The translations under genes were made by a program, and so were the position numbers. The notes below the pieces were generated by a model, which saw only the letters and a program-made list of their open reading frames with translations, was not told where the DNA came from and ran no database searches. This document shows, piece by piece, positions 2,570 to 32,314 of a DNA stretch of 32,613 nt (position 1 is its first letter; every line of letters begins with the position of its first letter). This DNA is from Ideonella azotifigens (GTDB taxonomy: Bacteria > Pseudomonadota > Gammaproteobacteria > Burkholderiales > Burkholderiaceae_C). The stretch is from positions 1 through 32,613 of the forward strand of contig NZ_VIDT01000009.1 in assembly GCF_006519715.1 (NCBI RefSeq), given 5' to 3'.

Positions 2570-2599
2570 TTGCGCACAAGACTATCATTTGTGCACAAA
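2570..2599. promoter_or_regulatory. Paired GntR-type operator upstream of gntR pseudogene
   Basis: A perfect palindrome TTTGTGCACAAA lies at 2588-2599 and a near copy TTGCGCACAA at 2570-2579. Their centres are 19 bp apart, the same spacing as at other promoters in the window. The pair lies 28-58 bp upstream of the gntR start. Confidence 0.75.
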
Positions 2600-6112: not shown

Positions 6113-6143
6113 TATATGCACACTTTTATTTTATGTGCATAAA
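6113..6143. promoter_or_regulatory. Paired GntR-type operator upstream of dehydrogenase 1
   Basis: TATGCACA at 6115-6122 and TGTGCATA at 6134-6141 form a perfect inverted repeat. Each is also the core of a TTTRTGCAYAAA-like palindrome, with TGCA centres 19 bp apart. The pair lies 34 bp upstream of the dehydrogenase start in an AT-rich pocket, consistent with a separate, repressible promoter for dehydrogenase and permease. Confidence 0.8.
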
Positions 6144-9325: not shown

Positions 9326-9353
9326 ATGTCTCTCATTGATCTTTCGCGAACCG

Positions 9354-9755
9354 TCAGCCTGGCAATCGCGTCGACTGGAACACCGCGAATCGCCACCCGT
9401 CGCGCCGGACCCAGATCTCGGTCGCCAGGGACTGGACGTCGATCCGCTGCGATTCACCGTGCCGCTGGATGGTCTGCGACAACTGGCCGCGGACCACCAC
9501 CGTGTCCATATCCTCGAAGGTGCAGGCCACCGCGAGCGACACGCGGCGAAATTGCTGTCGGTCTCGGACGAATGCCAGGTACCCTTCGCGATCGTGCGTG
9601 ATGCCGGTCGCGTGCGTGTAGCGGAGTTCCTCGGCCAGCAGCGTGCGCAGGAGCGATCCGTCCCGCGTCTCGAGCGCCTCGGCTCGCTTGCGCGAGGCCG
9701 CGAGCACGCTGGTCACCGACGGACTCGTCGCGCCCTCAAGAGTCGAAGGCGACAT
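9354..9755 (-). CDS. NTF2-like (SnoaL/DUF4440-type) small protein 1
   Basis: A 133-residue protein with the look of an NTF2-like fold: an N-terminal helix with ALETRDGSLLRTLLAEELRY, and a C-terminal WVRRDGWRFAVFQSTRLPG strand pair. These cone-shaped folds include isomerases, dehydratases, ring-hydroxylating dioxygenase beta subunits and proteins with no known activity. The start at 9755 has AAGGA upstream. It lies 28 bp upstream of FAD hydroxylase 1 in the operon. The RND operon carries a second NTF2-like gene (21947) of the same layout together with FAD hydroxylase 2, so a role linked to the hydroxylase product is likely. No catalytic residues can be assigned. Confidence 0.75.
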   Translation of the reverse strand: MSPSTLEGATSPSVTSVLAASRKRAEALETRDGSLLRTLLAEELRYTHATGITHDREGYLAFVRDRQQFRRVSLAVACTFEDMDTVVVRGQLSQTIQRHGESQRIDVQSLATEIWVRRDGWRFAVFQSTRLPG

Positions 9756-9786
9756 CGAGGATTCCTTGCGACGTGAAGTGGGGAGG

Positions 9787-10329
9787 TCAGGCCGACTCGG
9801 CCGAGAACTGCCGTTGCCATTCCTCGCGCGGCAGGAACGTCGGATCTGCGCGGCAGATGCGCTCGGTCTCGGTCCAGATCTCGGCGTCGGCCTTCTCGAG
9901 ATCCAGCGGATCGCCATGCGGTTGCGCGACGTAGTACGGCGTGTCCAGGTACACCTCGACGGTGTTGCCTTCCGGGTCGGAGAAATAGATCGACAGCGCA
10001 TTGCCATGGTTCAGGCCGCGCATCTGGCTCGCGCCCAGCCGCAGCGCGTCCTGCTTGACACGGCGCAGGTCGTCGAGGGCCTGCACTATGAACGAGAGCT
10101 GCATCACGGTGCTGAAGACCGCCTCCGCCGGACGACCCGACGACAGCACGAGCTGATGGTGCTGCTCGGGTCGCGCGCTGAGGAAGACCAGCTCGTTGCG
10201 AAAGGTCTTGCCCATGCCGCGGTCGGTGATCTTCAGGCCGAAGACCGAGGTGTAGAAATCGACCATGCGCGGCAGGTCGTGGACGAACACGCCGACATGG
10301 GAGAGGTTCGGAAGTGCGGAGGCAGTCAT
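9787..10329 (-). CDS. VOC-superfamily protein, possible extradiol dioxygenase
   Basis: A 180-residue vicinal-oxygen-chelate protein. The candidate metal triad is present: His11 (LSHVGVFV), His57 or His58 (EQHHQLVL) and Glu125 (NTVEVYLD), with the YFSDPEGNTVEVY signature typical of the glyoxalase/catechol 2,3-dioxygenase fold. Next to an ortho-hydroxylase and an FAH-family gene, a type I extradiol ring-cleavage role is the simplest proposal. At 180 residues it is shorter than classic two-domain extradiol enzymes, so a single-domain dioxygenase or an isomerase/lyase role remains open. The start at 10329 has a weak GCGAGA site. Spacing to neighbours is 29-31 bp. Confidence 0.82.
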   Translation of the reverse strand: MTASALPNLSHVGVFVHDLPRMVDFYTSVFGLKITDRGMGKTFRNELVFLSARPEQHHQLVLSSGRPAEAVFSTVMQLSFIVQALDDLRRVKQDALRLGASQMRGLNHGNALSIYFSDPEGNTVEVYLDTPYYVAQPHGDPLDLEKADAEIWTETERICRADPTFLPREEWQRQFSAESA

Positions 10330-10358
10330 GAGTTCTCGCTCGTACGGAGTGTGAGCGC

Positions 10359-10901
10359 TCAAGCGGCGCGTTCGGCGCCCACCAGCACGAACAGCATGAC
10401 CGCCGGCGCGTGGCTCTTGTTGCGCCACGCGTGCCGGTTTCCATGCTGCACCACGACGTCGCTGCGCTTCAGGAGAACTTCTTGACCGTCGTCGAGCTCG
10501 AGCGTGATCTCGCCGTCGAGGACGACGTCGTAGTCGATCGAGTCCGTGGTGTGCATCCCGGGACTGTCCATCTCGAACGTCTCGGCCAGGCCCGGCATCG
10601 CGCCGCCGAATTCGGCGCCGAAGGCGGCGGGATCGAAGTCCGCGCGCATCATCACCGCGTCCGGCGGGAAGGTGACGATCATGAGGCGGGTGCCGCCGGC
10701 ACCGGGCGTCCACGTGGCCGTGGGGGTCACGTCGTCGACGCCGGACCGGCCCACCTTCGCACCGCCGTTCGTCGACCACAGCAGCGTTGGCGAAAATCCC
10801 GGAACGCTCTTGAAGTCGGTCGTGCGCGGAGCCGCGCCGTCGGCCAGCACGCGGGACTTTCCGTCGGGCCCGTTGCCCGTGATGACACGTCGAATCTGCA
10901 T
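10359..10901 (-). CDS. Cupin-domain protein
   Basis: A 180-residue protein whose C-terminal half is one cupin barrel. Motif 1 reads GMHTTDSIDYDVVLDGE (about 115-131) and motif 2 DVVVQHGNRHAWRN (148-161), with His117 and His157 as likely metal or ligand contacts. It lacks the two cupin domains of gentisate dioxygenases. Such small cupins in catabolic operons may be dioxygenases, isomerases or sensors, and no specific reaction can be assigned. The start at 10901 has GGAG upstream. It lies between the DUF1185 and VOC genes, 29 and 46 bp away. Confidence 0.82.
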   Translation of the reverse strand: MQIRRVITGNGPDGKSRVLADGAAPRTTDFKSVPGFSPTLLWSTNGGAKVGRSGVDDVTPTATWTPGAGGTRLMIVTFPPDAVMMRADFDPAAFGAEFGGAMPGLAETFEMDSPGMHTTDSIDYDVVLDGEITLELDDGQEVLLKRSDVVVQHGNRHAWRNKSHAPAVMLFVLVGAERAA

Positions 10902-10947
10902 GGCTTGTCTCCGTCTGATTGATTTATGGATGCTCGATCGAGCGAGG

Positions 10948-11529
10948 TCAACGCAGGCCGTCGAGCCCCTTGACGTCCGCCGCCGCCAGGCCGCCGATGC
11001 GGGCGTGGATGCGACCGCCCGTGGCCATCGCGAGGCCGAACGCGATCTCATCGCGGCGCGGCCCGTCCCACACCGTCATCTCCGCGGTACCGAAATGGCT
11101 TCGGACATACGCCGCCTGGGTATGTCCCAGCGGGATCATCAGGCGCGTACCCATGTGGCCGATGGTCTTGGCCGCCGGCACGATCGCTTTGGGCTGGCCC
11201 AGCACCTCACGCATGGCCCAGCCGCCGGCCTCGTGCCAGAGGGCGCCGTGTTCGAGTTCGCCATCCTCGCCGACGATCGCGCCCTTGCCGTAGGCCTGCA
11301 CGCGATCCGCGCCGCCCAGGGCCTCGACCAGCCGCGTCGACAACTGCGTGCCGAGTGCGCGCAGTTCGGCCATGAAGCCCATCAGGTCGGCCTCGTGCCG
11401 TCCCGCGTAAGGGTTGCGGATGATTGCGAGCGCGGTTGCCACGACCAGCGGCTGGGCCGCGCGCGGGCCGCGTTCATGGAATATCTCCTCGACCGCGAGG
11501 TGCGTCTTTCGAATATCTACGAGCGACAT
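10948..11529 (-). CDS. DUF1185 (AA_synth) family protein
   Basis: A 193-residue protein of the family annotated 'amino acid synthesis' (DUF1185). I recognise it by the start ValAspIleArgLys with Glu-Glu-Ile-Phe-His-Glu, by NPYAGR (39-44 region), and by the C-terminal block DEIAFGLAMATGGRIHARIG. The family name rests on weak early annotation; members commonly sit in catabolic operons and their reaction is not established to my knowledge. The start at 11529 has GAGAGAAAA upstream. It is 22 bp from FAH and 46 bp from the cupin gene, so it is part of the same transcript. Confidence 0.8.
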   Translation of the reverse strand: MSLVDIRKTHLAVEEIFHERGPRAAQPLVVATALAIIRNPYAGRHEADLMGFMAELRALGTQLSTRLVEALGGADRVQAYGKGAIVGEDGELEHGALWHEAGGWAMREVLGQPKAIVPAAKTIGHMGTRLMIPLGHTQAAYVRSHFGTAEMTVWDGPRRDEIAFGLAMATGGRIHARIGGLAAADVKGLDGLR

Positions 11530-11551
11530 GGATTTTCTCTCGAATCGGGGT

Positions 11552-12412
11552 TCAAGCTTGATCGACGATCGGGTTGCGGAGCGTGCCGACGGCTTCGATT
11601 TCGACTTCGACGACGTCGCCGCCCTTCATGTACATCGGCGGCTTGCGGCCGAAGCCGACGCCGGCCGGCGTGCCCGTGACGATCACGTCGCCGGTCGCGA
11701 GCGTGAAGATGGTGGACGCGTAGGCGATCAGCTTCGGAATCGAGAAGATCATCAGGCTGGTGTCGCCCGACTGCATGACCTCGCCGTTCAGGCGCGTCTC
11801 AAGCTTGAGCTTGCGGCCGGGCTCGATCTCGTCGGCGGTGACCATCCAGGGGCCGAATCCGCCCGTCGATTCGAAGTTCTTGCCCGAAGCGATCTGCTTC
11901 GCGTGGAACTGCCATTCGCGCACGCTGGCGTCGTTGTAGCAGGCGTAGCCGGCCACGTGCTTGTAGGCGTCCGCCTCCGCGATGTTGCGGCCGCCTTCGC
12001 CGATGATGACGGCGAGCTCGCCTTCCCAATCCAACGTCTCGGACACGCGCGGACGCACGATGGGCGCACCGTGAGCGGTCTGCGAACGCCACACGCGCAG
12101 GAAGACCGGTGGGAAGTCCGACAGCTCGCGCTGCAGGCCGGCGGCCAGCGCCTCCTGGTGGTGATCCATGTAGTTGCGCACGGCGCAGACGATCTTCTCC
12201 GGCCGCGGGATCACCGGCAGGAACTCGATCTCCGAGAGAGCCACCTCGGCGGCCTTGCCCGCGACGAGCGCGTCCCGATCGATGTAGCCGGGGCTGCCGA
12301 TGAACTCGGCGAGCGTGGCACAGCCGGTCGGGCCGGCGAGTTCCACGACGCCGTCACCGACCACGGCGCCCCAAGTTTCACGGCCATCGCGCTTGTAAGA
12401 GAGCAGTTTCAT
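11552..12412 (-). CDS. Fumarylacetoacetate hydrolase-family protein
   Basis: A 286-residue FAH-superfamily enzyme. Metal ligands are visible as Glu130 and Glu132 (DWEGELAVIIG) and Asp161 (YNDASVREWQ). Conserved LNGEVMQSGDTSLMIFSIP and VIVTGTPAGVGFG segments complete the fold. The family hydrolyses or hydrates/decarboxylates products of aromatic ring cleavage, for example fumarylpyruvate or 2-oxo-hept-3-ene-dioate. It is the first gene of the leftward operon. The ATG at 12412 has GAGGAAG at good distance, and a paired operator lies 34 bp upstream. It could process the VOC product; that is inference. Confidence 0.92.
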   Translation of the reverse strand: MKLLSYKRDGRETWGAVVGDGVVELAGPTGCATLAEFIGSPGYIDRDALVAGKAAEVALSEIEFLPVIPRPEKIVCAVRNYMDHHQEALAAGLQRELSDFPPVFLRVWRSQTAHGAPIVRPRVSETLDWEGELAVIIGEGGRNIAEADAYKHVAGYACYNDASVREWQFHAKQIASGKNFESTGGFGPWMVTADEIEPGRKLKLETRLNGEVMQSGDTSLMIFSIPKLIAYASTIFTLATGDVIVTGTPAGVGFGRKPPMYMKGGDVVEVEIEAVGTLRNPIVDQA

Positions 12413-12446: not shown

Positions 12447-12477
12447 TTTGCGCATAAAACATTCGACCATGCACAAT
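12447..12477. promoter_or_regulatory. Paired GntR-type operator upstream of the FAH operon
   Basis: TTTGCGCATAAA at 12447-12458 and ACCATGCACAAT at 12466-12477 have centres 19 bp apart. They lie 34-65 bp upstream of the FAH start. This ties the seven-gene FAH-to-ALDH operon to the same regulator as the other operons. Confidence 0.72.
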
Positions 12478-15956: not shown

Positions 15957-16260
15957 AGCCGGGCCGGGCCATACAGAACGGCTACATCGAGAGCTTCAAC
16001 GGCAAGTTCCGAGACGAGTGTCTCAACGAGCACTGGTTCGAGAACCTGCGGCAAGCACGCTCAGAGATCGCGGCCTGGCGCCGGGACTACAACGAGGTGC
16101 GGCCTCACAGCAGCATTGGCCGCGTGCCGCCAGCCCGGTATGCCGAGCAACTGCGCCAAGAAGTCGGCGACGCTGCTCGCCACGCGCCCCCCCCAGATCC
16201 ATTGACCTTCAACCCCAGGACCCCTGACGAATCACTGGTACGGCTGAAGGGGGCAGGTCA
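15957..16260 (+). pseudogene. IS3-family transposase orfB, 3' part after the IS66 insertion
   Basis: This continues the split transposase: EPGRAIQNGYIESFNGKFRD holds the third catalytic residue (Glu of YIESFN), followed by AWRRDYNEVRPHSSIGRVPP and ARYAEQL, the usual C-terminal block of this IS group. The frame runs past the right inverted repeat without a stop near the end, so the natural terminus may be lost. It cannot be expressed with its N-terminal part while IS66 is present. Confidence 0.85.
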
Positions 16261-16346
16261 CACGCGGCGGTCATGTCGCCGCAGTTGCGCATCAGCTCGT
16301 CAGGCTGGACGCGAAGCGAAAGCCTCTCAAAGTCCTGCAAGATCGC

Positions 16347-16372
16347 TGGGCCCGGGTCGCCAGCCGGGCCCA
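16347..16372 (-). terminator. GC-rich hairpin downstream of dehydrogenase 2, possible terminator
   Basis: TGGGCCCGG (16347-16355) and CCGGGCCCA (16364-16372) are perfect inverted complements around an 8-base loop, 32 bp beyond the dehydrogenase stop. No run of U follows in the leftward transcript, so intrinsic termination is uncertain. It could also be an IS-insulating or chance hairpin. Confidence 0.38.
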
Positions 16373-16403
16373 AGGGAGCCTTCTCACTCCCCGCCACACC
16401 GCG

Positions 16404-17519
16404 TCACGGACGGACGACGAAGTTCGTGAACCCCCCGTCGCGCCCATCGACTTCGACCAGGGCAGTGTTCACCTCTTCCAAGGAATAGACCTTGTGTTCG
16501 AAGACGCTGAGATCCAGCGTGCCGGCTTCAACCATCTGCGCCATGTCCTGGCCTTCGCTCGTGGTGAACCACAGCGAACCGACCAGCGATCGCTGCGTGA
16601 TCATCAAGTAGCCGGCATCCACCGCGAGCGCTTCGGACACGCCACCGACGTTCACCGCGACGCCGCCATGACGAAGCGAGTGGAAGGCATCCATCACGCT
16701 GGAGGCTGGAGCCCCCGGGGCCAGAGCCTCCAGCATCGCATCGACACCGTTCCCGCCAGTGGCCTCCATTGCCTGTGCGGCAACGGTGCCGTCCCTGCTC
16801 GACACTGGGACGATCCGGTGAGGGTCCAGCTGGCGCAGCTTTTCAAGCCGATGCGGATCCCGGCCCGTGGCAAAGACCTTCGATGCGCCCATGGCGAGCC
16901 CAAGCAGCACCGCACCGACACCGAGCGTCCCTGTCCCGCCGTTAACAAGGAGGCGCTGGCCAGGCTTGAAGTTTGCCTTGCGAAGGCCAGCGTAGGCTGT
17001 GCCGAGATAGCCAAAACGAGACGCCTGCTCGAAGGACAGGTTGTCGGGAAGCTTGACGACGTTGCCGACCGGACAGGTAGCGTATTCAGAGAAACCGCCG
17101 TACGGATAAGCGTCGTACTGGTTCTGCGATTCGGGGCCGAAGCCGAAATACCCCATGAAGGTGAAATTCCGACAGTTGGTCGGGTCGGCCCTGCGACATG
17201 CTTCGCACGAACCGCATGAAAGGCCTGGATTGACGTAGACGCGGTCGCCCACCTTAACGTCGGTCTTCACCAACGAGCCGACGCTTGCAACCACCCCGGT
17301 GGTGTCCAACCCGAAGATCGCCGGGAGCTTGGGCAGCGGCAGAAACGGCGCCACCTTAGGGTATATCGTCAGCACATTGCGCAAGTTGTGCACCAAGCCC
17401 GCCGCCGCCACCTTGACCAGCACGTCGGTGGGACGCGGTTCGGGCACTGGAATGCGATCAATTTGAAAACGGCCGTCCAGCTCGTGCAGCCGCGCTGCTC
17501 TCATCAGCTTTTCATTCAT
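16404..17519 (-). CDS. Zinc-type medium-chain dehydrogenase 2 lacking catalytic-zinc ligands
   Basis: A 371-residue medium-chain dehydrogenase related to dehydrogenases 1 and 3 but more divergent. The structural-zinc lobe is present (CGSCEACRRADPTNC) and the Rossmann motif reads NGGTGTLGVGAVLLG. As in the other two copies, catalytic-zinc ligands are missing: GLVHNL replaces GxCGTD and FGLDTTG replaces the GHE segment. It is the last gene of the DUF1302-DUF1329-YCF48 operon, 45 bp after the YCF48-like gene. The ATG at 17519 has GAGAG upstream. The substrate is unknown; presence in both enzyme operons suggests two related oxidation or reduction steps. Confidence 0.87.
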   Translation of the reverse strand: MNEKLMRAARLHELDGRFQIDRIPVPEPRPTDVLVKVAAAGLVHNLRNVLTIYPKVAPFLPLPKLPAIFGLDTTGVVASVGSLVKTDVKVGDRVYVNPGLSCGSCEACRRADPTNCRNFTFMGYFGFGPESQNQYDAYPYGGFSEYATCPVGNVVKLPDNLSFEQASRFGYLGTAYAGLRKANFKPGQRLLVNGGTGTLGVGAVLLGLAMGASKVFATGRDPHRLEKLRQLDPHRIVPVSSRDGTVAAQAMEATGGNGVDAMLEALAPGAPASSVMDAFHSLRHGGVAVNVGGVSEALAVDAGYLMITQRSLVGSLWFTTSEGQDMAQMVEAGTLDLSVFEHKVYSLEEVNTALVEVDGRDGGFTNFVVRP

Positions 17520-17564
17520 CTATGTCTCTCAATTGGTTCAAAGTCAGTGAAGGTGGCACTTGGA

Positions 17565-18617
17565 TCAAGTCAAGGCCGAACGAAGGCTGAGGCGCTGCAC
17601 GCCGCGCAAGCTGGTCGCCACCAATGCACCATTACGCCCTAGCGCCATCGCGGTAATGGGCAATCCCGTCGGATTTGAAACCGCACGGAAGCTCTTGCCA
17701 TCATCCTGGCTCATCAACAGCTCGCCCGCCTGAGAAGCGAGGAGCAGCGACCCGTTGTCAAGCGCGAGGCCTGCGCTGATCGATGCAGCGCTTCCTGTGG
17801 GCACTTCGCTCCAGGTACCGGCCGCATCCCGGGATACGAAGACACGACCCCTCAGGCCATACAGCACCAGTTCGCCTTTCTGGCCGGAGACTAGACCGAA
17901 GTACGAGCCTTTGGAGGGCGCCTGCAGCGCTTCAAAGTGCTGCCCATGGTCATCCGATCGAAGCAGCAGACCTTGCTCGCCCGTGATGTAGATCGAACGA
18001 CCGACCTCACGCACCGCGTAGAGATGCAGTCCTTTCGGGTTGGGCAAGCGCGGCATCACGCACTCCCAGGAACTCCCACCATCGTTGGTGAGGAATGCGA
18101 GGTTGTAGGCGCCGATCACCCACCCCACGTTCTTGTCCTGGAAATACAGGTCCAAGAACGGCTTGTCCGGGCCGTCCTCCAGCAACCGGCTTGCGACAGC
18201 GGCCTGGCCTGCGTCGGTTGCGGCTTTGGCCGCAAGTGCTGCGGCCCGGATTCCGTCGAACTGAACAGTCCAGGTTTCTCCGTTGTCACCGGTCCGCAGG
18301 ACCACCCCGAGATGCCCGACGGCCCAGCCCGTGTGGTTGTCCACGAACTGGACGGCCGTCAGCGAGACACTAACCGGAACACGGGCTTGGCGCCAACTCA
18401 CGCCCTCGTCGTCCGACAGCAGCACGATGCCCCGTTCGCCTACGGCCACTAGGCGGTTTCCGGACCGTGTCACTGCGAGAAGGGCCGCACTCGCCGCCTT
18501 GCGGGTTGCGAGTGCCGGTTGTTGCAGGACATCGAAGCGGGGCAAGGACGCGGCCCGCGCCAGCGACATCCCCGCCCACGCACCAGCCGTGAGCAACTTC
18601 AGAAACCGACGACGCAT
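17565..18617 (-). CDS. YCF48/BNR-repeat beta-propeller protein with Tat-like signal
   Basis: A 350-residue exported protein. The N-terminus MRRRFLKLLTAG with a following hydrophobic stretch and ARA looks like a twin-arginine signal. The rest consists of repeated blade motifs of the YCF48/BNR kind: LLSDDEGVSW, RTGDNGETW, TNDGGSSWE, RSDDHGQHF, SRDAAGTW, SQDDGKSF. Related proteins (photosystem II assembly factor HCF136/YCF48 type) often accompany DUF1302, DUF1329 and RND genes in degraders of hydrophobic compounds; their role there is unproven. The start at 18617 is chosen for the signal; a longer in-frame start near 18662 is possible. It lies 97 bp after DUF1329. Confidence 0.85.
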   Translation of the reverse strand: MRRRFLKLLTAGAWAGMSLARAASLPRFDVLQQPALATRKAASAALLAVTRSGNRLVAVGERGIVLLSDDEGVSWRQARVPVSVSLTAVQFVDNHTGWAVGHLGVVLRTGDNGETWTVQFDGIRAAALAAKAATDAGQAAVASRLLEDGPDKPFLDLYFQDKNVGWVIGAYNLAFLTNDGGSSWECVMPRLPNPKGLHLYAVREVGRSIYITGEQGLLLRSDDHGQHFEALQAPSKGSYFGLVSGQKGELVLYGLRGRVFVSRDAAGTWSEVPTGSAASISAGLALDNGSLLLASQAGELLMSQDDGKSFRAVSNPTGLPITAMALGRNGALVATSLRGVQRLSLRSALT

Positions 18618-18714
18618 GACAACACCAGAAACACCGAAAAAAACAATCCAGCCACCGGGCATCGCACAAGGGTCGCAATAACGCCCGCCCCCCAGAGGGG
18701 CTGATGCAAATCGG

Positions 18715-20079
18715 TCATCGCGCACCTTCTGTGAGGGAATCCGGGGAGAAAAATTCAGGCGGACGACGGCTGGTGACCTCGTACTGCCGAGGCGACCCGA
18801 GCGTGGAAACGCTGAGGTAATACTCGCCCGTCTGGACGTTGTAGCCGCCCCAATTGACCAGATTGCCAAGCAGCGCGGGGATGTCGGGCGCTAGCAGGGT
18901 CAGCGAAAAGTACCCGCGCCACAGCGAGCCCTTGGCATCCCAACCATCCGTCAGCAGAACGCACCAGGTGTCCTCGTCGAGATAGTATGTTCGCTTGGGC
19001 ACGACGTGCCGTTTGCCCTCGCGCAGAGTCGCTTCCACCACCCACACGCGGTGCAGTTCCCACCGCACGAGGCTGGGGTTCAGAAAGTTTGGCTGAACGA
19101 GTTCTTCAGGCGACGCAGCCGCTGCCTTATTGTTGTTGTAGGGAACCAGCATCTCCTGTTTACCGACCAACTTTAAGTTGTGTCGACTCAGCGCTCCCGC
19201 AGCACCGAATGCCTCGTCGAACAGGCCGATGCCAGAGGTGATGAAGTTCGGCGTGTCATAACCGACCGACGGAGACCGCCGCACGCGCCGCTGGCCCACC
19301 AGGTACTGCCACGCAGAGCCCTTTTCGCTTTCGAAAGCCTGCCAGGCGAGCAATGCCTCGCCTGCCTTCGAAGCCGGCTCCAGGGTCAGCACCTTCGTTT
19401 TGTAGTACTGTCCGTCGAAGTTACTCGCTGCGCCATCCTTGTAGTAATACGGATTGGCAAACCATTCATCGTACTTCGTCGCCATGATGCGCTTGCCTTG
19501 GCCGGTAACAACCCAGGTCGTGTACTGTCCCTGCGCATCTTCACCGGCCCATGCCATTCGGCTATTCCACATGGCCTCGGAGCCATCTTTAGGAATGGGA
19601 AACGGAATACCGCCAAAAGCGCCTTCAATGCTGTCGCCCTCCTGAAACGTCTTCGCGCGCGTGGCATTCTTGAAAATATTGTCGTAGACCAACTGCGGCG
19701 CAGAGGCGGTGCGGTGCGTCGGATAGACATCCAGGCGATAGTCCGGATGCTTCTTCAGCATCGCCTTCGTGACCTCGCTAAGCTTATCCGCGTACTGATC
19801 AATGTTCTTGGAAGTCACCGAGTACAACGGCTTTTCCGACGCAAAAAAATCCGGACGCGGCTGCCCCTGCTTGTAGCCGGCAGGTACCTTGCTGAAGCCG
19901 CCGTCCCAGGCAGGGATGGAGCCATCTTTGTTGCCCGACTTTTCCGCGCCCATTGGCGTTAGCGTTGACTTCAACTTGGCAGCCTCGTCGGCTGAGACCG
20001 CAGCCCAGACAGACCCAGAGCCAACCACAACCGCAGTTGCCAGCGCCGTTCGCGCAATCAATGAAAGGGAATTCTTCAT
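18715..20079 (-). CDS. DUF1329 family exported protein
   Basis: A 454-residue protein with a clear signal peptide (ALATAVVVGSGSVWA, cleavage near residue 27). The mature part begins AVSADEAAKLKSTLTPMGAE and carries the family-typical NKDGSIPAWDGGF, QPNFLNPSLVRWELHRVWVV and KRTYYLDEDTWCVLLTDGWD segments. DUF1329 proteins have been compared with LolA/LolB-like lipid or lipoprotein carriers, and they usually accompany DUF1302. A periplasmic or outer-membrane carrier role for a hydrophobic substrate is inference. The ATG at 20079 has GAGG upstream. The DUF1302 gene ends 17 bp earlier, so the two are cotranscribed. Confidence 0.92.
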   Translation of the reverse strand: MKNSLSLIARTALATAVVVGSGSVWAAVSADEAAKLKSTLTPMGAEKSGNKDGSIPAWDGGFSKVPAGYKQGQPRPDFFASEKPLYSVTSKNIDQYADKLSEVTKAMLKKHPDYRLDVYPTHRTASAPQLVYDNIFKNATRAKTFQEGDSIEGAFGGIPFPIPKDGSEAMWNSRMAWAGEDAQGQYTTWVVTGQGKRIMATKYDEWFANPYYYKDGAASNFDGQYYKTKVLTLEPASKAGEALLAWQAFESEKGSAWQYLVGQRRVRRSPSVGYDTPNFITSGIGLFDEAFGAAGALSRHNLKLVGKQEMLVPYNNNKAAAASPEELVQPNFLNPSLVRWELHRVWVVEATLREGKRHVVPKRTYYLDEDTWCVLLTDGWDAKGSLWRGYFSLTLLAPDIPALLGNLVNWGGYNVQTGEYYLSVSTLGSPRQYEVTSRRPPEFFSPDSLTEGAR

Positions 20080-20096
20080 ACAAACCTCGTTGTCAA

Positions 20097-21755
20097 TCAG
20101 AAGGTGCGCTTGATGTTCAGCGACAGAAAGTCGCGATCCTTCAGGCTCTGTCCGTAAGACAGCACTGCGGAGTTCGAATTGGGAGGAGAGAGATAGGTAG
20201 ACTCTTTGCCCAAGTACTTCACGTAGTTGATCCCGAACGTCCAGACGCTTTCATACTCGCCCGTCAGGCCGATGGAGATATCGCCGCCGTGCTCGACGCC
20301 GCCATTGAAACCGAAGACCGCAGAAGATCGGCCCTTGGGGTTGTAGCCTAGGCCGATCGGCAGACTCAAATCGAGCCCTGGCAGGACTTGGTAATAGGAC
20401 GGCGTGAACAATATTCGCAACGCCAAGGCGTCCCGCGTCGTGTTCGGGTCCAGCGCACCGGAATTGCGCGTGATGCTGAGTGTGCGGTTCCACGCCACCT
20501 CGGCCAGGAGGAAGGCCCCTTGCCACAGGGTCCCGGGGCCCATGGAATAAATGCCAGACACCTGGGCATGCGCCGTCTTGCCGACGGGGTAAGCTGGGTT
20601 ATGGACGTTGTCGGCCCCTGCGTTGTACTGAACTAGCGCCGCGTCGCCGACGAGCGGCGCGTTGTTCCGCACCGAGACCTCGCCCGCGAGGTTCAGTTCA
20701 CCGAGCACCGTGCTTGCGCTCGCGCCGTAGGTCTGGATCCCTTCCGGATAGACGTTCACGAAGTTGTGGGGCGTGCCCAACCCCGGGATTTGCGGCGTCG
20801 TGAAGTCAGTGGTGAGGTAGATCTGCGGCGTCTTATCGTGATAGCGCACAGCGTAAAGACCGAATTCGGTGTCGATGGAGCTGGCGCGGTAGCGCAGTTG
20901 AATACCGCCCTGACCACTGTTGCGCGGCTTGATATCCGCGCCGCGCGGCCACGGCCCCAACCGCTCCCCCCCTTCGCCGACGAAATCGAGCGTGCTGAGG
21001 TAACTGCCGGCTGGCGGCAGAATGGATTCCTTCCACTCAAACTGGTAATAGGCGCCGATCGACAGGACGGGGGAAATCTGCAGTTGTCCCGACACCTGAT
21101 TGACCGGCCTCAACACCTCCTTGAACTGACTGCTCGGTACACTCACAAGCTTGACAAGATCAAGCGGGCCCTGTGCATTGGCGATTCCGTTCTGACCGAA
21201 GAACAGGCTTTCTCCGAAAACGAGGGAGTGTCGTCCCAGTCGCAAGGTCCCTTTCATGTCAGCGACAGATCCGTTGACGAAACCGAACGCATCGAGTAGC
21301 TCCCCTTTGCGGCCCATGCGGTTACGAGTCTCCCGCGTGAATTCGTTATATGGAACGCTGACGTTGTTGCTCGTAGCAGGACTGTTGTTGTCGTTCTTGC
21401 TGTTGTAGACGGTGTCGTACCACGCTGCGCCGCTCAGCCGAACGCCAACGTTCTTGTACGAAGCATCCAGCTCGGAAAAGATGTCGAGCCGATTGGAAAT
21501 CAGTCCCCTTGCGAAGTTGCGGTCGCCGTCGTCGCCGCCCGCGTCTTCCATGATGACGTTGGAGCGCTCCTTCAGACGGGTCGCAGCGCTGTACTTGAAG
21601 GTGTTATCCCACCGCAGCTTGACATCCGGACTACCGGTATCAAACGAGAAAGCGTGAACGCCAGAGGCCGCCGCCGCGCATGCGATCACGATTGCCTTCG
21701 GAAAGACCGCCACCCGCGCGTCTTCGACTCTGCGGATGTACTCGCCATTCTTCAT
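20097..21755 (-). CDS. DUF1302 family outer-membrane protein
   Basis: A 552-residue predicted outer-membrane beta barrel. The signal sequence ends near SGVHA (VFPKAIVIACAAAASGVHA), after which the mature start FSFDTGSPDVKLRWDNTFKY is typical of DUF1302. Alternating strands with aromatic girdles run throughout, and the last residues SLNIKRTF end in Phe, as expected for outer-membrane insertion. It may let a hydrophobic substrate in or out. The start at 21755 has GGAG five bases upstream and is preferred to the longer frame that runs into the operator. It is first in the operon with DUF1329, YCF48 and dehydrogenase 2; a paired operator lies about 107 bp upstream. Confidence 0.92.
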   Translation of the reverse strand: MKNGEYIRRVEDARVAVFPKAIVIACAAAASGVHAFSFDTGSPDVKLRWDNTFKYSAATRLKERSNVIMEDAGGDDGDRNFARGLISNRLDIFSELDASYKNVGVRLSGAAWYDTVYNSKNDNNSPATSNNVSVPYNEFTRETRNRMGRKGELLDAFGFVNGSVADMKGTLRLGRHSLVFGESLFFGQNGIANAQGPLDLVKLVSVPSSQFKEVLRPVNQVSGQLQISPVLSIGAYYQFEWKESILPPAGSYLSTLDFVGEGGERLGPWPRGADIKPRNSGQGGIQLRYRASSIDTEFGLYAVRYHDKTPQIYLTTDFTTPQIPGLGTPHNFVNVYPEGIQTYGASASTVLGELNLAGEVSVRNNAPLVGDAALVQYNAGADNVHNPAYPVGKTAHAQVSGIYSMGPGTLWQGAFLLAEVAWNRTLSITRNSGALDPNTTRDALALRILFTPSYYQVLPGLDLSLPIGLGYNPKGRSSAVFGFNGGVEHGGDISIGLTGEYESVWTFGINYVKYLGKESTYLSPPNSNSAVLSYGQSLKDRDFLSLNIKRTF

Positions 21756-21861
21756 CTTGTCTCCATTTGCTTGGTACTGAGGGAGTCCTGGATCAGCGGC
21801 GTTCCCAAAACACTGCCTCACGGCAGTCACGTCACGCCGCCGATCTCCAGCGACCACCTGT

Positions 21862-21892
21862 CTCATGCATATTATCTATCTTTATGCATAAA
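21862..21892. promoter_or_regulatory. Paired GntR-type operator upstream of the DUF1302 operon
   Basis: TTTATGCATAAA at 21881-21892 is a perfect palindrome, and CTCATGCATATT lies at 21862-21873, with centres 19 bp apart. It is in the gap between the NTF2-like gene and DUF1302, so DUF1302 likely has its own controlled promoter. Confidence 0.8.
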
Positions 21893-21946
21893 GAGCAGTC
21901 GGTAGGAACCCGATACGCCACGGAGGGCCGCTGTCACCCAGTGGTA

Positions 21947-22324
21947 TCAAGCCTTGGGCAAGCTCGTTGACTGCCAGTTGACCACCTGCCACAGCCCGTC
22001 TGATTGTTGGGCCCACAGGATGGTGAACCGGTTGTTGAGGGTCCGTTTCTCGCCTGCGATCTCTACCTGCATATCGGCGACACCGCTCACCGCTGCGACG
22101 CTTCCAAACAAGCGGACGGACTCATCGCTGCATTCGATGGATCGGTACTTGGTCTTGCCAGAACCGATGGTGTTCAGAATGCCAAGCTTGGAGTCGATGC
22201 GCCCATTGCCGTGAATCCATAACAGCTCGTCATTGAAGAGCCCCTCAAGGGAGGACAGGTCGGCCTCGATCATTGCGCGTCGACGGCGTTGATCGAGCGC
22301 CAGAATCTCTTGTTTCCCAGTCAT
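21947..22324 (-). CDS. NTF2-like (SnoaL/DUF4440-type) small protein 2
   Basis: A 125-residue protein with the NTF2-like pattern: EILALDQRRRRAMIEADLSS, LEGLFNDELLWIHGNGRID, and the C-terminal pair NNRFTILWAQQSDGLWQVVN ending STSLPKA. The layout and end match the protein at 9354 (FQSTRLPG versus WQSTSLPKA), so the two are probable paralogues. The ATG at 22324 has GGAG upstream. It is the last gene of the operon with FAD hydroxylase 2 and the RND transporter, 78 bp after the latter. The function is not known. Confidence 0.78.
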   Translation of the reverse strand: MTGKQEILALDQRRRRAMIEADLSSLEGLFNDELLWIHGNGRIDSKLGILNTIGSGKTKYRSIECSDESVRLFGSVAAVSGVADMQVEIAGEKRTLNNRFTILWAQQSDGLWQVVNWQSTSLPKA

Positions 22325-22402
22325 ATCGTTTTCTCCAGAAAGTTGGGTTGGCGACCGTTCTCGCCGCACGCTAGCGGTGTCAATAGATCGACGCAGGGCC
22401 GC

Positions 22403-24838
22403 TCAACCAACCGCCTTCATGAGGGACGCCTGCGGCTCCCGGTTGGCAGCAGTCGTCGACTTTCGAAGCAAGAAATGCGAAAGCGCAGGAATGAGAATGA
22501 GCGCTCCGAGCATGTTCCAGAGGAACATGAAGGCCAGGAGGATGCCCATATCGGCCTGGAACTTGATGTCCGAGAAGGACCACGTCAGGACGCCGACCGC
22601 CAGCGTGAAACCCGTCAGCAGAACGACCTTGCCGGTAAACAGCAATGCCTTGTAGTAGGCCGTCGACAGGCTGCTGCCCTGGCGCAACTGCTGCAGCGTC
22701 ACACTGAGGATGTAGAGCGCGTAGTCGACACCGATACCCACGCCCAGGGCGATGACCGGGAGCGTCGCGACCTTGACGCCCATGTTCAACTTCACCATCA
22801 ATGCCTCTGCCAAGACCGAGGTCAGCATCAACGGTAGGACGGCCACCAAGACGGCGCGCCAGGACCGGAACGTCAGAAAGCAGAGGATCGTGACGGCCGC
22901 ATAGACCAACAGCAGCATTTGCGTCCACGCTTGCTTCACAACGATGTTCGTAGCGGCCTCGATCCCTGCGCCGCCAGCAGCGAGCACGAACTTGGCCTCC
23001 GGTGTGTCGTTCGCTTTGGCATACGCCTCCACCTCGGCGACGACACGGCTGAGCGTCTCCGCCTTGTGGTCCTTGAGGTAAACGTAGAGCGACAGCAGCG
23101 AGCACCCCTGGTTCAGCAACTCGCGAGGTGCACGCGTCTGCACGGCCCCGATTGCTCCCTCATTGGGGATCAACTCATACCACTTGAACGCGCCTTCATT
23201 GAACCCGACCATGGAAAACTTCGACAGCATGGCCATGGAGTTGGTGGATTCGACGCCGGTCAGTTGCTCGATCTGCCACGCCAGGCGGTCGACCTTGGCC
23301 AAGGTGCCATATGCTCCGCATCGGTCCGGTTCAGTGGGAACCATCACGACCAGGATGTCGGAACTGGCGGCGTAGTTGGCCGAGATGTACGCGTTGTCCT
23401 TGTTGTAGCGGGAATCGGGACGCAGCTCGGGCGCCCCCGCGTCAAGATCACCGATCTTGAGCTGGGTAGAGACCGCGACCCCCCCCACCGCCAGGACGAC
23501 CGCTGCGACTATCGCCGCGGCTGCGGCGCGTCGCTGGGTGAACGCATCGAGCCAGCGCCACAGACGGTGCTTCGCTGCGCCGCCGCTGTCTCGATCCGCA
23601 TGTTCGGTGCGCAGGCTGCGGTGAGCAGCCGAGAGGCTGACCCCGGTGTAGCTCAGCAGAATGGGAAGGAGGATCAAGTTGGTGAAAATGAGCATCGCCA
23701 CGCCGATGCTCGCCGCCACCGCAAGCTCCTTGATCACCGGAATGTCGATGACCAGCAACACGGCGAATCCGACAGCGTCGGCGAGCAGCGCGGTCAGGCC
23801 CGCCATGAACAGACGTCGGAAGGTGAATCGTGCCGCAACAAGCTTGTGCACGCCTCTCCCGATGTCCTGCATGATCCCGTTCATCTTCTGTGCCCCATGG
23901 CTCATGCCTATGGCGAAAACGAGAAACGGCACCAGCACCGAGTAGGGGTTGAGCTCGTATCCCAACGTTGGCAACGCCCCCAACTGCCAAACAACCGCAA
24001 CCAGCGAGCTGGCCATTACCAGCAACGTGCTACGCACGTCGCGATTGAACCAATAGATCATTCCCGTCGCGATGCCGATGGCTACGGCGAAGTACCGAAG
24101 CACTTCGCGCAAACCCGCAATCAGGTCGCCCACGACCTTGGCGAATCCGGTGATGTGCAGGTCGGTCGCCTCGTCCTGGTACTTCGCCCGGATCTCTTCG
24201 AGACCCTCGGAGAACTTCCGGTAGTCGAGCTTTTTTGCGGTCTGCGGATCCTTGTCGAGCAGCGGCACGAAGATGATGGAGGAACGGAAGTCGGCCGCAA
24301 CCAGCTGGCCAATCTCGCCGGAGCGTTCCACGTTCAGCCGCACCTGCTGAAGTGTGCGCTCCGAGCCGTCATAGTCTTCCGGAATCACGGCGCCGCCGTC
24401 CACCCCGTCTTCTGTCACTGCCGACCATCGGACGTTCGAGGTAACCATCGACTTCATGAACGACCGGTCGACCCCCGGGAGCAGAAACACCTCGTCGTTG
24501 ATCTTTGCAAGCTTCGAGAGATAGTCCTTGTCAAAGACCGTTCCGCGCTTATTGACTACGGCGACCCGCACAACATTCTCAAGTCCCGTCAAGTCTTCTT
24601 TGTGCGACAGGAAGTTGACGATGTACGGATGCGAGGTCGGGATCGTCTTCTCGAAACTGGCGTTCAGTTGCAGCTTGGTGGCCTGGAACCCGAACACCAC
24701 GGTGAAGATGAGGCAAAGGATCAGCACGATCCGCCGGTGATTGAAGAGCGCACGCTCGATGAGCGAGCCGGACCGAGGATCGAAGTCTTCCAGCCGCTGA
24801 ATTTGGCCGGGCGTGTCGGAGAGGGAGGCAGGATTCAC
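22403..24838 (-). CDS. RND/MMPL-family membrane transporter
   Basis: About 811 residues, an RND-superfamily protein of the MMPL type (COG1033-like). Helix 1 is RIVLILCLIFTVVFGFQ near the N-terminus, then a large periplasmic loop, a helix bundle (VLVPFLVFAIGMSHGAQKMN, FMAGLTALLADAVGFAVLLV), a second loop, and a second bundle with VIALGVGIGVDYALYILSV and FMFLWNMLGALILIPALSHF. It would move a hydrophobic compound across the inner membrane, driven by protons. Unlike AcrB it lacks adaptor and outer-membrane genes beside it; the DUF1302/1329/YCF48 set may take that place. The GTG at 24838 overlaps the hydroxylase stop (GTGA); a further GTG at 24904 is possible. Confidence 0.9.
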   Translation of the reverse strand: MNPASLSDTPGQIQRLEDFDPRSGSLIERALFNHRRIVLILCLIFTVVFGFQATKLQLNASFEKTIPTSHPYIVNFLSHKEDLTGLENVVRVAVVNKRGTVFDKDYLSKLAKINDEVFLLPGVDRSFMKSMVTSNVRWSAVTEDGVDGGAVIPEDYDGSERTLQQVRLNVERSGEIGQLVAADFRSSIIFVPLLDKDPQTAKKLDYRKFSEGLEEIRAKYQDEATDLHITGFAKVVGDLIAGLREVLRYFAVAIGIATGMIYWFNRDVRSTLLVMASSLVAVVWQLGALPTLGYELNPYSVLVPFLVFAIGMSHGAQKMNGIMQDIGRGVHKLVAARFTFRRLFMAGLTALLADAVGFAVLLVIDIPVIKELAVAASIGVAMLIFTNLILLPILLSYTGVSLSAAHRSLRTEHADRDSGGAAKHRLWRWLDAFTQRRAAAAAIVAAVVLAVGGVAVSTQLKIGDLDAGAPELRPDSRYNKDNAYISANYAASSDILVVMVPTEPDRCGAYGTLAKVDRLAWQIEQLTGVESTNSMAMLSKFSMVGFNEGAFKWYELIPNEGAIGAVQTRAPRELLNQGCSLLSLYVYLKDHKAETLSRVVAEVEAYAKANDTPEAKFVLAAGGAGIEAATNIVVKQAWTQMLLLVYAAVTILCFLTFRSWRAVLVAVLPLMLTSVLAEALMVKLNMGVKVATLPVIALGVGIGVDYALYILSVTLQQLRQGSSLSTAYYKALLFTGKVVLLTGFTLAVGVLTWSFSDIKFQADMGILLAFMFLWNMLGALILIPALSHFLLRKSTTAANREPQASLMKAVG

Positions 24839-26502
24839 GGAGTACTCGTAGTCGCGGGTTGGATCTGCAGAGTCAAAGGCGGGTGCTCTCGCTCTGGTTC
24901 GCACGGCGTGGTAACGCTTCCAGGATCGCCGCAGTTCTTGTTCTTAATTCGTTCGCGCAATTGGTCAACCAGCGCGAGTCCGGCTTCAACCCCAGCAGCT
25001 GTGCCGTACACGTAATGGTCCGGTCGGACGATGGCGACGTCGGCACCGAGACCGTGCAGCCAGGCTTGCAAGAGCGGAGTCTCCTCTTCAACCGAAAAGC
25101 CCAGGCCGGCATGGCGTTTCGCGTCCGGACCGACGAAGACCGCACAGCCCTTGAGCGCTGCCGCCATCACGGCCACCGCGCCGGCTTCGTCGTCGGTGAG
25201 CCGTTCGGTCACGACGATGCGGAAGCACGCACCGGTGATGTCGTCCAGCAGCTTCGACACTCCACCCGGCGTGATGACGGTCGGCTGGGGAAGCGGTTCG
25301 CCGGCGCCCGGCGTCCCTGTGGCGATCAGTCCGTCTCGCAGCGGCGGAATCATCGACTGGCGAAAGGTCGTTTTCACCACCCCGCCCTGCTCGGCCAGCA
25401 TCCGCGCATCGCGGGAACGTGCCTTGACGGGATCGCGCTCACAGATCACACGCCCAAGCTGGATAGCCGCGCGGGTGGTCGCCGTCACGTGCGGACGCCG
25501 TTCTACCCCATAGTCGTCGAGAAGACGATCAGTCGAGGCTCCGGACAGCACTCTTTGGAGACGCCAAGCCAGTCCGTGAGCATCCCGGATCCCCTGAACC
25601 ATGCCCTGCGCCATGAATGGAGGCGTCATGTGCGCAGCATCGCCCGCCAATAGCACGCGGCCCTTGCGCCACTGTTCGGCCACCAGACCGTGGAAGCGAT
25701 AGGCTGCTGCGCGCCGCAATTCCGCGTCTCCCGGCTTGATCCAGCGCGACAGTAACGGCCATAGCTGATCGGGCGGAAAGTCGCTCGAGAGGCTGTCGAC
25801 CTCGAGCAACATCACCTCCCAACGGCGGTGATTACCGGGCCCGACCACGAAGGTGCATGGCCTCTCGGGCTCGCAGTACTGGACTTGCGTTGTCGGCAGA
25901 TCTGCGATTTTGTGGTCATGAACATCGGCATCGACAACTAACCAATGCTCATCGAAGGCAAGGTCTTCCAGCTTGATGCCCAAGGCCTTGCGGATGGGAC
26001 TGGAGCCACCGTCGCATGCGACCAGATAACGAGCCATCCATTGTTCGATTTCCCCGTCGGCGTTCTGCACCTCAACCTCGACACCCTCCCGGCTCTGCGT
26101 ATGCGACAGCACCTGGCAAGAGAGGAACACACGCACGCCGGCCAGCTCGCTCAGACGTCCACGGATCTCGCGCTCGAAGGCGGGTTGATCAAAGACGTAA
26201 TTGGGCGCCCAGCCGAGCCGATGCGGCGGAGGCTCCGTGTCGAGCTGCTTTATCAACTGACCTTCAACGCCACGATATTGGCTGGGCCTATAGGGCGCCG
26301 CATGCGTCAGCACGCGGCTTGCAATGCCGAGCTCCTGCATCACACGCATCACTTCGTGGTCGAAACCGATGGCGCGCGGCAGAGGAAACAGGTCAGGCAT
26401 CCGATCGAAAGCCGCGACGGTCATACCCCGCTGAGCCAGCAAAGCCGACAGCACGGCACCTGTAGGACCTAACCCAACGACAATGACATCTGCGCTATTC
26501 AT
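24835..26502 (-). CDS. MhpA-like FAD-dependent aromatic hydroxylase 2
   Basis: A 555-residue class A flavoprotein monooxygenase. FAD motifs are GLGPTG (10-15), CDGGSSPIRK (163-172) and LLAGDAAHMTPPFMAQG (284-300), at the same positions as in hydroxylase 1 with no gaps over the first 300 residues. A C-terminal extension of about 35 residues (after LRERIKNKNCG) is absent from hydroxylase 1 and overlaps the start of the RND gene. It probably hydroxylates a phenolic ring using NAD(P)H and oxygen. First gene of its operon; a paired operator lies 27 bp upstream. Two near-identical motif sets with differing surfaces suggest two related substrates or two rings of one substrate. Confidence 0.9.
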   Translation of the reverse strand: MNSADVIVVGLGPTGAVLSALLAQRGMTVAAFDRMPDLFPLPRAIGFDHEVMRVMQELGIASRVLTHAAPYRPSQYRGVEGQLIKQLDTEPPPHRLGWAPNYVFDQPAFEREIRGRLSELAGVRVFLSCQVLSHTQSREGVEVEVQNADGEIEQWMARYLVACDGGSSPIRKALGIKLEDLAFDEHWLVVDADVHDHKIADLPTTQVQYCEPERPCTFVVGPGNHRRWEVMLLEVDSLSSDFPPDQLWPLLSRWIKPGDAELRRAAAYRFHGLVAEQWRKGRVLLAGDAAHMTPPFMAQGMVQGIRDAHGLAWRLQRVLSGASTDRLLDDYGVERRPHVTATTRAAIQLGRVICERDPVKARSRDARMLAEQGGVVKTTFRQSMIPPLRDGLIATGTPGAGEPLPQPTVITPGGVSKLLDDITGACFRIVVTERLTDDEAGAVAVMAAALKGCAVFVGPDAKRHAGLGFSVEEETPLLQAWLHGLGADVAIVRPDHYVYGTAAGVEAGLALVDQLRERIKNKNCGDPGSVTTPCEPEREHPPLTLQIQPATTSTP

Positions 26503-26528
26503 GTGGACCTAACACCTTCGAAGGCTAG

Positions 26529-26559
26529 ATTGTGCACAAAGATATGTCGAGTGCATAGA
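26529..26559. promoter_or_regulatory. Paired GntR-type operator upstream of FAD hydroxylase 2
   Basis: ATTGTGCACAAA at 26529-26540 and a weaker CGAGTGCATAGA at 26548-26559 have centres 19 bp apart. The site lies 27 bp upstream of the hydroxylase start. Confidence 0.75.
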
Positions 26560-26619
26560 TTTTCCCAGGTCCTCATTCCCAGTGGAAACCCGGATGCGCA
26601 AGGCTTTCATCGCTGCTTA

Positions 26620-26649
26620 AATATGCACGAATCTGGTTTTGTGCATTAC
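26620..26649. promoter_or_regulatory. Paired GntR-type operator upstream of dehydrogenase 3
   Basis: AATATGCACGAA at 26620-26631 and TTTGTGCATTAC at 26638-26649 have centres 18 bp apart. They lie 38 bp upstream of the rightward dehydrogenase start, back to back with the hydroxylase 2 operator 60 bp away. Confidence 0.7.
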
Positions 26650-26687
26650 TTTGCAATCAGATGTAGCCGGAGACGAGAGTGAGCACC

Positions 26688-28021: not shown

Positions 28022-28028
28022 GGCCCCC

Positions 28029-31525: not shown

Positions 31526-31555
31526 TTTGTGCGGTTCCGGAATAGTGTGCACAAA
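31526..31555. promoter_or_regulatory. Paired GntR-type operator upstream of the intact gntR
   Basis: TTTGTGCGGTTC at 31526-31537 and AGTGTGCACAAA at 31544-31555 have centres 18 bp apart. They lie 42 bp upstream of the gntR start, pointing to autoregulation. Confidence 0.7.
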
Positions 31556-31597: not shown

Positions 31598-32314
31598 ATG
31601 AGAAACGATGCCCCCATCGCGTCCGCGCCGCCGGAAGCCCCGTTGGTCGAACAGGCCTACGAGGCCTTGCGGCGTTCGTTAATCCGCTGCGAGTTCGAGC
31701 CCGGCCAACGGTTGCGGGTTGAGGAACTGCAGCGTCGGTACGGGTTCTCGAGCAGTCCACTGAGAGAAGCGCTCAATCGTTTGGTGCAACAGGGGTTCGT
31801 CCGTACGCTGGAACATCGCGGCTTCCGTGTGGCCCCACTGTCGATTGAGGGCATCACCGACCTGACCCGGGTGCGTCTGCTGGTGGAATGCGAAGCATTG
31901 CGCGACGCGATGCGCCACGGCGACGACCGCTGGGAAGCCGGTCTAGTTGCCGCTTTACACGCACTGTCGCTTGTCGAGAAACGCCTGGGCACCGGCCCGG
32001 TGGTTCTCGACGACGAATGGACCTCGCGCCACCGCGCCTTCCACTTAGCCATATACAGCGGCTGCACCTCGCCGCTGCTCACGGAGATGGTCGACGGCCT
32101 GTTCGACCAGGCTGAGCGGTTCCGCCGTTTCTCCGCGCGACTCCGCACCACTCACCGTGCGAAGAACAACGAGCACCAGCGACTGTTCAACGCAGTTTTG
32201 GCACGCGACGAGGTTCAAGCGCTGGCACTGCTGGAGCAGCACATTCGCAGCACCGAGCGCAACGTAACGACCGCGCTTCGCACGCTGGCGGCCGGCAATA
32301 GCGGCCCGCATTGA
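31598..32314 (+). CDS. GntR/FadR-family transcriptional regulator
   Basis: A 238-residue FadR-subfamily (FCD) regulator. The winged helix spans about 38-80 (VEELQRRYGFSSSPLREALN, then HRGFRVAPLS). The all-helical FCD ligand domain follows, with candidate metal-binding His149, His193 and His215 (FHLAIY, NEHQRL, EQHIRST). Such regulators usually repress catabolic genes until a pathway acid binds. It is intact, whereas its close paralogue at 1830-2541 is dead, so it is the best candidate to read all the paired palindromes in the window, including one at its own promoter. It ends directly beside the stop of a convergent hydroxylase remnant. Confidence 0.92.
   Translation: MRNDAPIASAPPEAPLVEQAYEALRRSLIRCEFEPGQRLRVEELQRRYGFSSSPLREALNRLVQQGFVRTLEHRGFRVAPLSIEGITDLTRVRLLVECEALRDAMRHGDDRWEAGLVAALHALSLVEKRLGTGPVVLDDEWTSRHRAFHLAIYSGCTSPLLTEMVDGLFDQAERFRRFSARLRTTHRAKNNEHQRLFNAVLARDEVQALALLEQHIRSTERNVTTALRTLAAGNSGPH

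Follow-up and report, generated by a model that had tools for sequence, protein, structure and literature searches.

A permuted AmeABCD-like transport cassette with pathway-type operator-like dyads behind a flavoprotein hydroxylase gene of Ideonella azotifigens

In a stretch of 32,613 nucleotides from Ideonella azotifigens (NCBI RefSeq assembly GCF_006519715.1, contig NZ_VIDT01000009.1, positions 1 to 32,613; here called the window), which is contig C1109 of an assembly of 6.26 megabases in 1219 contigs, genes for an oxidation pathway lie in one row with genes of an envelope transport system. The original prediction had described seven genes in this row, and all of them were found in the order it gave, on the minus strand and running from 26502 to 16404: flavin adenine dinucleotide (FAD) hydroxylase 2, an RND transporter, an NTF2-like DUF4440 protein, DUF1302, DUF1329, a YCF48-type protein and dehydrogenase 2. 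With the start codons chosen here, the gaps between them are, in gene order, -4, 78, 191, 17, 97 and 45 base pairs (bp).

Hydroxylase 2 (24835..26502) is a group A flavoprotein monooxygenase of the PRK06183.1-3 subfamily, for which it scores 493.8 bits against a cut-off of 390. The RND/MMPL transporter (22403..24838, with a GTG start) is AmeD-like and HAE3-like; it scores above the cut-off for MMPL, and its best NCBIfam match, TIGR00921 (HAE3), reaches 145.4 bits against a cut-off of 351.9. It is followed by the NTF2-like DUF4440 protein (21947..22324), a distant paralogue (25% identity) of a DUF4440 protein beside hydroxylase 1 in the left half of the window; at an E value of 1e-4 it has no relative in 40 cassette loci. 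Next come DUF1302 (20097..21755, with a longer open reading frame from ATG 21866; 427.9 bits in Pfam), an AmeA-like predicted outer-membrane protein, DUF1329 (18715..20079; 409.1 bits), an AmeB-like predicted periplasmic protein, and the AmeC-like YCF48/PSII_BNR protein (17565..18617; 78.6 bits); all three scores lie above the Pfam cut-offs, so that the AmeABCD-type trio is complete. The row ends with the Zn-dependent dehydrogenase 2 (16404..17519), which is 50% identical to dehydrogenase 1 further left. At an E value of 1e-90, relatives of dehydrogenase 2 were found in its own genome only among 200 genomes of the family, and it therefore provides no neighbourhood evidence.

The names used here follow Castellaniella defragrans, in which AmeA, B, C and D are DUF1302, DUF1329, COG4447 (YCF48-type) and an HAE3-type RND protein, in a gene organisation, A-B-C-D, that is stated to be conserved (PMC6394551). 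At an E value of 1e-100, RND matches occur in 48 of the 200 family genomes including its own, at 76 places outside it. Forty stretches, mostly of about 20 kilobases (kb), were fetched; they cover 41 of these 76 places, at 53-69% identity to the RND protein of the window, and the other 35 are mostly less similar. YCF48 lies directly upstream of RND in all 40 stretches, and the co-linear order A-B-C-D is present in 39, the exception being L089, where DUF1302 and DUF1329 are on the opposite strand. One stretch (L072) has, beside the full set, an extra YCF48-RND pair for which no DUF1302 or DUF1329 was detected. At the level of the order (300 genomes, 31 places), DUF1329 is upstream of RND on the same strand at 25 of the 31 places; of the remainder, it is downstream at one (36% identity), in a mixed or opposite arrangement at two, and not within 5 kb at three. 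Two places of odd order were fetched and read A-D-C-B (G363) and A-B-C-D with a second B (G468). In the window the order is D-(DUF4440)-A-B-C, with RND first and behind hydroxylase 2, an arrangement seen at none of the relative places examined, whether in the family stretches or at the order level. The window thus departs from the conserved A-B-C-D organisation, and we therefore call its cassette AmeABCD-like and permuted rather than a strict member, an assignment made by protein families and family relatives. When plasmids were searched at the DNA level with the whole module, five records matched, and the matching pieces are all annotated as MMPL transporter. In the own genome (G000), contigs C565 and C802 hold two extra DUF1302 copies, one of them paired with DUF1329 (57%), and there is one AmeD-like RND at an E value of 1e-100; several outer-membrane partners may share a single pump there.

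The link between the cassette and the pathway comes from short repeated sites. A 10-base consensus, TTGTGCACAA, was taken from a palindrome at 26530, before hydroxylase 2, and with at most one mismatch it matches six places in the window where 0.73 would be expected. Such matches are arranged as tandem dyads 18-19 bp apart. When a pair is required to reach a summed score of at least 15 of 20, the window holds seven pairs (at 2570, 6114, 12448, 17368, 26530, 26621 and 31527), as against a mean of 0.13 and a maximum of 2 in 200 resampled sequences; other spacings give 0-3 pairs each. Six of the seven sit 27-43 bases before a start codon: 26530..26558 (TTGTGCACAA and GAGTGCATAG, 19 bp apart) lies 27 bases before hydroxylase 2, 26621..26648 lies 30 bases before the remnant of a third dehydrogenase, 12448..12476 lies 35 bases before a FAH hydrolase gene, the first of the ring-cleavage module in the left half of the window, 6114..6142 lies 34 bases before dehydrogenase 1 (its start taken as ATG 6079), 31527..31554 lies 43 bases before an intact GntR gene, and the best pair, at 2570..2598 with 19 of 20, lies 28 bases before a broken GntR copy. 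The pair at 17368 falls within the coding sequence of dehydrogenase 2 and is probably due to chance. The site at 26530 supplied the consensus and is set aside for that reason; of the six independent pairs, five are at promoters. In the whole assembly, an ideal tandem pair with at most three mismatches was found only at the 2570 site (spacing 19) and nowhere at spacing 18; a search this strict misses weaker sites such as that at 26530, and further members of the regulon are possible.

The same dyads recur outside this genome. Eight relatives were scored in the divergent region between GntR and FAH (seven) or between GntR and a dehydrogenase (one), and each has a pair scoring 16-18, a score equalled in 0-2 of 2000 resamplings. 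Pairs of at least 15 occur in 10 of the 11 relatives L004-L014 and on two near-identical Variovorax plasmids; the 10 dyad-bearing relatives have 25 pairs at spacing 18 or 19, and no other spacing between 11 and 30 has more than three. As a control, 789,812 bp around the 40 cassettes contain no pair of at least 15 at spacing 18-19, and 0-3 pairs at each of the other spacings. We suggest that the shared operator-like dyads, which support this at the level of sequence, represent a real link between the oxidation and the envelope genes at this locus, and that they would be bound by GntR.

The proposed regulator of both modules is the intact GntR/FCD protein (31598..32314, plus strand). The left aromatic module (7757..12412, minus strand) encodes a FAH hydrolase, AA_synth, a cupin, a glyoxalase-type VOC enzyme, DUF4440 and hydroxylase 1; Zn-dehydrogenase 1 (4970..6079, minus strand, in an open reading frame from GTG 6121) belongs to it as well, and the left half additionally holds an aldehyde dehydrogenase. 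A core of GntR, FAH, AA_synth, VOC and hydroxylase occurs together at nine of the ten loci L004-L013; L007 is without FAH and VOC in the stretch examined. A literature search on the gene terms of the left module gave no matching pathway description. The VOC enzyme (9787-10335) has a 59% identical relative on plasmids of the actinobacterium Rhodococcus opacus PD630 (H49, H50), which hints that the ring-cleavage step has been widely transferred.

The 191-bp gap upstream of DUF1302 bears on the claim that the seven genes form one transcript. It contains a perfect 16-bp palindrome, TCTTTATGCATAAAGA (21879..21894), 123 bases before ATG 21755 and 12 before ATG 21866, the core of which, TTATGCATAA, is a site variant found in relatives. 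A 14-base core pattern read from this palindrome itself has, with at most three mismatches, three further matches in the window (2588, 6130 and 26529) where 0.25 would be expected, and all three coincide with operator sites. Because a perfect palindrome similar to the pathway sites lies in the 191-bp gap, we propose that there are perhaps two units, hydroxylase 2-RND-DUF4440 and DUF1302-DUF1329-YCF48-dehydrogenase 2, with a possible second promoter and operator before DUF1302. A single seven-gene operon read from one promoter before hydroxylase 2 is possible too, to our minds with somewhat less than an even chance: the genes are co-directional, the gaps are short except for the 191 bp, and a consensus terminator scan found no minus-strand terminator-like site in the intergenic gaps (four lie within the gene row, all in coding sequence), whereas a promoter at the palindrome would make a second unit, with read-through still possible. 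Scans for sigma-70 promoters and terminators over 16000-32613 did not exceed shuffled sequences (3 against 3.5 promoters, 8 against 13 terminators). Direction, mostly short gaps and the lack of a gap terminator agree with cotranscription, and the palindrome, with the internal promoter that may go with it, weakens it.

A second argument for coupling had been the 4-bp overlap, GTGA, which the GTG start of RND (24838) shares with the TGA of hydroxylase 2. The overlap is present as described. Hydroxylase 2 has 555 amino acids as against 497-538 in 22 relatives, a comparison that rests on reading each to its stop codon and not on the alignment behind the structural model. In that model, which was made for hydroxylase 2 only (mean predicted local distance difference test score 83.7), residues 522-555 are disordered; the alignment contained only the matched ranges of the relatives, and the absence of tails from it and, in part, the low confidence of the tail of hydroxylase 2 are therefore built in. 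The overlap seems to be the result of the C-terminal tail running into the region before RND and stopping at its start, as sequence and model together suggest, and the position of RND behind hydroxylase 2 would then be secondary. If the overlap arose by extension of the tail, it is by itself no evidence of a functional link, and we rejected it as strong proof of coupling in view of the unusually long hydroxylase 2 with its disordered tail. The 50 best solved matches of the model are flavoprotein monooxygenases at 16-24% identity. MhpA proper was rejected as an identity for hydroxylase 2: the equivalogs PRK06183.1-1, -2, -4 and -5 all stay below their cut-offs (226.2 against 966, 226 against 853, 194.3 against 1135 and 325.8 against 546 bits). 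At an E value of 1e-160 its relatives among 300 genomes of the order are confined to its own genome. The two hydroxylases of the window share 64% identity; a tree places hydroxylase 2 beside L013 (93/91), and hydroxylase 1 elsewhere in an unresolved fork.

Export of the YCF48 protein by the twin-arginine translocation (Tat) pathway had also been proposed, with the consequence that it folds before export. A Tat signal consists of RRxFLK, a hydrophobic stretch and AxA, and the N-terminus in the window, MRRRFLKLLTAGAWAGMSLARA, which begins MRRRFLK, has all three; Tat export of this protein is plausible from its sequence. Among the 40 YCF48 relatives a crude RR-hydrophobic pattern is found in 16, a count that misses at least L070 and L079 (twin-arginine by eye) and may include false ones, and many relatives are without the motif. 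We thus rejected Tat export as a conserved feature while retaining it for the protein at hand, and folding before export is no general need of YCF48 proteins.

Several further features lie around the two modules. An IS66 element occupies 13493-15891, and a stretch of its transposase is repeated in inverted orientation on the other side of the cassette module (15308-15403 and 27642-27737, 88% over 96 nucleotides), the second copy being a remnant. The dehydrogenase 3 remnant (26679-27447, plus strand), divergent from hydroxylase 2 and with an operator-like pair of its own, matches dehydrogenase 1 at its two ends (84% and 77% identity) and lacks about 113 middle residues. The broken GntR copy (1851-2541, minus strand) is 65% identical to the intact one, is disrupted by a shift of frame and by a stop codon in frame, and retains the best tandem operator upstream (2570-2598). 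Beside the intact GntR gene are genes for a Rieske oxygenase and a ferredoxin reductase (28962-31412, minus strand), with a single operator-like site upstream (31415). An MhpT-like MFS transporter at 3550-4782 (minus strand) matches its model at residues 36-199 of a reading frame of 410 amino acids and may be truncated or frame-shifted. The left end of the contig (1-134) repeats 28781-28914 at 98.5%, perhaps as part of an insertion sequence where the assembly stopped.

Taken together, we suggest with moderate confidence that an aromatic pathway of ring hydroxylation and ring cleavage has captured an AmeABCD-like cassette into its GntR/FCD regulon, and that the pump of this cassette moves the substrate or a product, likelier outward. 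DUF1302 in the outer membrane, DUF1329 and YCF48 in the periplasm and the RND pump in the inner membrane would form the transport complex, with an operator-like site before hydroxylase 2-RND-DUF4440 and probably also before DUF1302-DUF1329-YCF48-dehydrogenase 2. In the presence of an aromatic inducer, GntR would release the cassette genes and the ring-cleavage operon alike. The pump would keep a hydrophobic substrate, or the reactive product of its hydroxylation, from exceeding a tolerable level in the inner membrane, likelier by outward movement, and the compound would meanwhile be consumed by both hydroxylases and the enzymes of ring cleavage. Of the coupling between oxidation and transport in the original prediction, what survives is that the genes belong together, for which the operator-like dyads speak mainly and the overlap less; the single transcript is a weaker possibility.

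A number of observations weigh against this proposal. The palindrome before DUF1302 reaches a tandem score of only 14 of 20 with its neighbour, and the control loci have 19 pairs of at least 14. At the threshold of 15, L014 (Mesorhizobium) and L097 (Massilia) have no dyads, and a few pairs of the relatives fall outside promoters (in L008 at 2700-2718, within a dehydrogenase, and in L010 at 20235). The attribution of the dyads to the GntR/FCD regulator depends on an operator type that we take to be that of its family. The ten closest hydroxylase loci, L004-L013, have no cassette gene in the flanks examined. At an E value of 1e-100 the hydroxylase has matches in 22 of the 200 family genomes, and it occurs together with RND in five (G000, G045, G097, G116 and G170, the own genome included) where 5.3 would be expected, which is the level of chance; the link between hydroxylase and pump is thus confined to this and a few other loci and does not extend to the enzyme family. 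Mobile DNA lies on both sides of the module. Finally, loss of ameABCD in Castellaniella hardly changed the real-time efflux of Nile Red (PMC6394551), which weighs against the export half of the proposal.

The last point leads to the reading in which a poorly soluble aromatic compound or its ester is passed inward from the outer membrane by DUF1302 and DUF1329, driven by RND, and hydroxylase 2 acts on it, which we hold as a tentative alternative. In P. putida, PP_0765, PP_0766, PP_2018 and PP_2019 are required for the use of Tween 20, with some mutual contacts predicted (PMC10866462), and PMC13101534 cites impaired growth of Delftia on phenanthrene after deletion of DUF1329; these phenotypes fit uptake as well as export. 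An insertion in ameB likewise reduces growth on monoterpenes (PMC6394551), and co-regulation with a catabolic pathway suits uptake equally well. On the other hand, cells deleted for ameABCD tolerate monoterpenes less well and, when treated with carbonyl cyanide m-chlorophenyl hydrazone (CCCP), accumulate slightly more Nile Red, which fits export, and HAE3 pumps are said to move substrates into the periplasm (PMC6394551).

It seems unlikely to us that the neighbourhood is an accident, in which rearrangement placed the cassette beside a duplicated set of hydroxylase and dehydrogenase while the pump serves another substrate. The IS66 element and its inverted remnant would agree with such a history, as would the past rearrangement seen in the dehydrogenase 3 remnant and the broken GntR copy and the chance level of co-occurrence; against it stand the pathway operator-like dyads before hydroxylase 2 and, less surely, before DUF1302, and the clusters in which related hydroxylases lie near canonical cassettes. 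In G045 (L075) a 46% identical hydroxylase is found about 8 kb from such a cassette, and a Massilia putida plasmid carries a 48% identical one on the strand of DUF1302-DUF1329-YCF48-MMPL, at a distance of about 11 kb. The Massilia putida region (NZ_CP019037.1, 375220-417479; L097, L107) is a long catabolic cluster with porins, VOC, FAH, a hydroxylase and a complete cassette. The most far-reaching version of the capture proposal, that the Ame-type pump is modular, with RND joined transcriptionally and translationally behind the hydroxylase under GntR operators and the hydroxylated product as its main cargo, we consider improbable; were it true, the locus would be an inducible "hydroxylate-and-move" unit whose pump evolution can split and rewire.

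Among known systems, the flavonoid pathways ifc (Variovorax V35) and fde (Herbaspirillum) share with the window a group A FAD hydroxylase (PMC11069340, PMC11303751), and ifc, compared by description only, also a glyoxalase-type ring-cleavage enzyme and cupins like those of the left module; they differ in that the accessible parts of these papers mention no Ame cassette. A flavonoid substrate was rejected as a claim and is kept as a lead. The P. putida set (PP_0765/PP_0766 and PP_2018/PP_2019) resembles the cassette in that a fitness phenotype and predicted contacts tie together DUF1302, DUF1329, a periplasmic protein and an efflux-type transporter; it differs in its two separate pairs, as judged by locus numbers, in its Tween 20 phenotype, and in that no hydroxylase is mentioned in the accessible part of the report. 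Closer in regulation are the COG4447-COG1033-PF07044-DUF1302 operons of Betaproteobacteria, where the AphS/AphR/AphT regulons of aromatic pathways are predicted to include these four genes, with a possible role against toxic aromatics (PMC6449761); their regulators are others and their pathways phenol-type, whereas a GntR/FCD protein and tandem dyads are proposed here.

The AmeABCD system of Castellaniella has the same four families beside genes for the breakdown of hydrophobic compounds. In the window, by contrast, RND comes first and behind a hydroxylase, DUF4440 lies in between, a dehydrogenase is last, GntR operators are proposed, and the substrate is probably aromatic rather than a monoterpene. 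The idea of transport for this gene set is, by analogy with these systems, sound but already published; what appears new here, and unusual, is the permuted order, the position of RND behind the hydroxylase and the pathway-type operator-like dyads. Cassettes of DUF1302, DUF1329, YCF48 and RND occur near hydrocarbon and aromatic pathways, with cargo and direction unsettled. The operator would predict which genes make up the pathway, and a cassette tied by sequence to one regulator and one hydroxylase would allow inducer, cargo and direction to be tested together at one locus.

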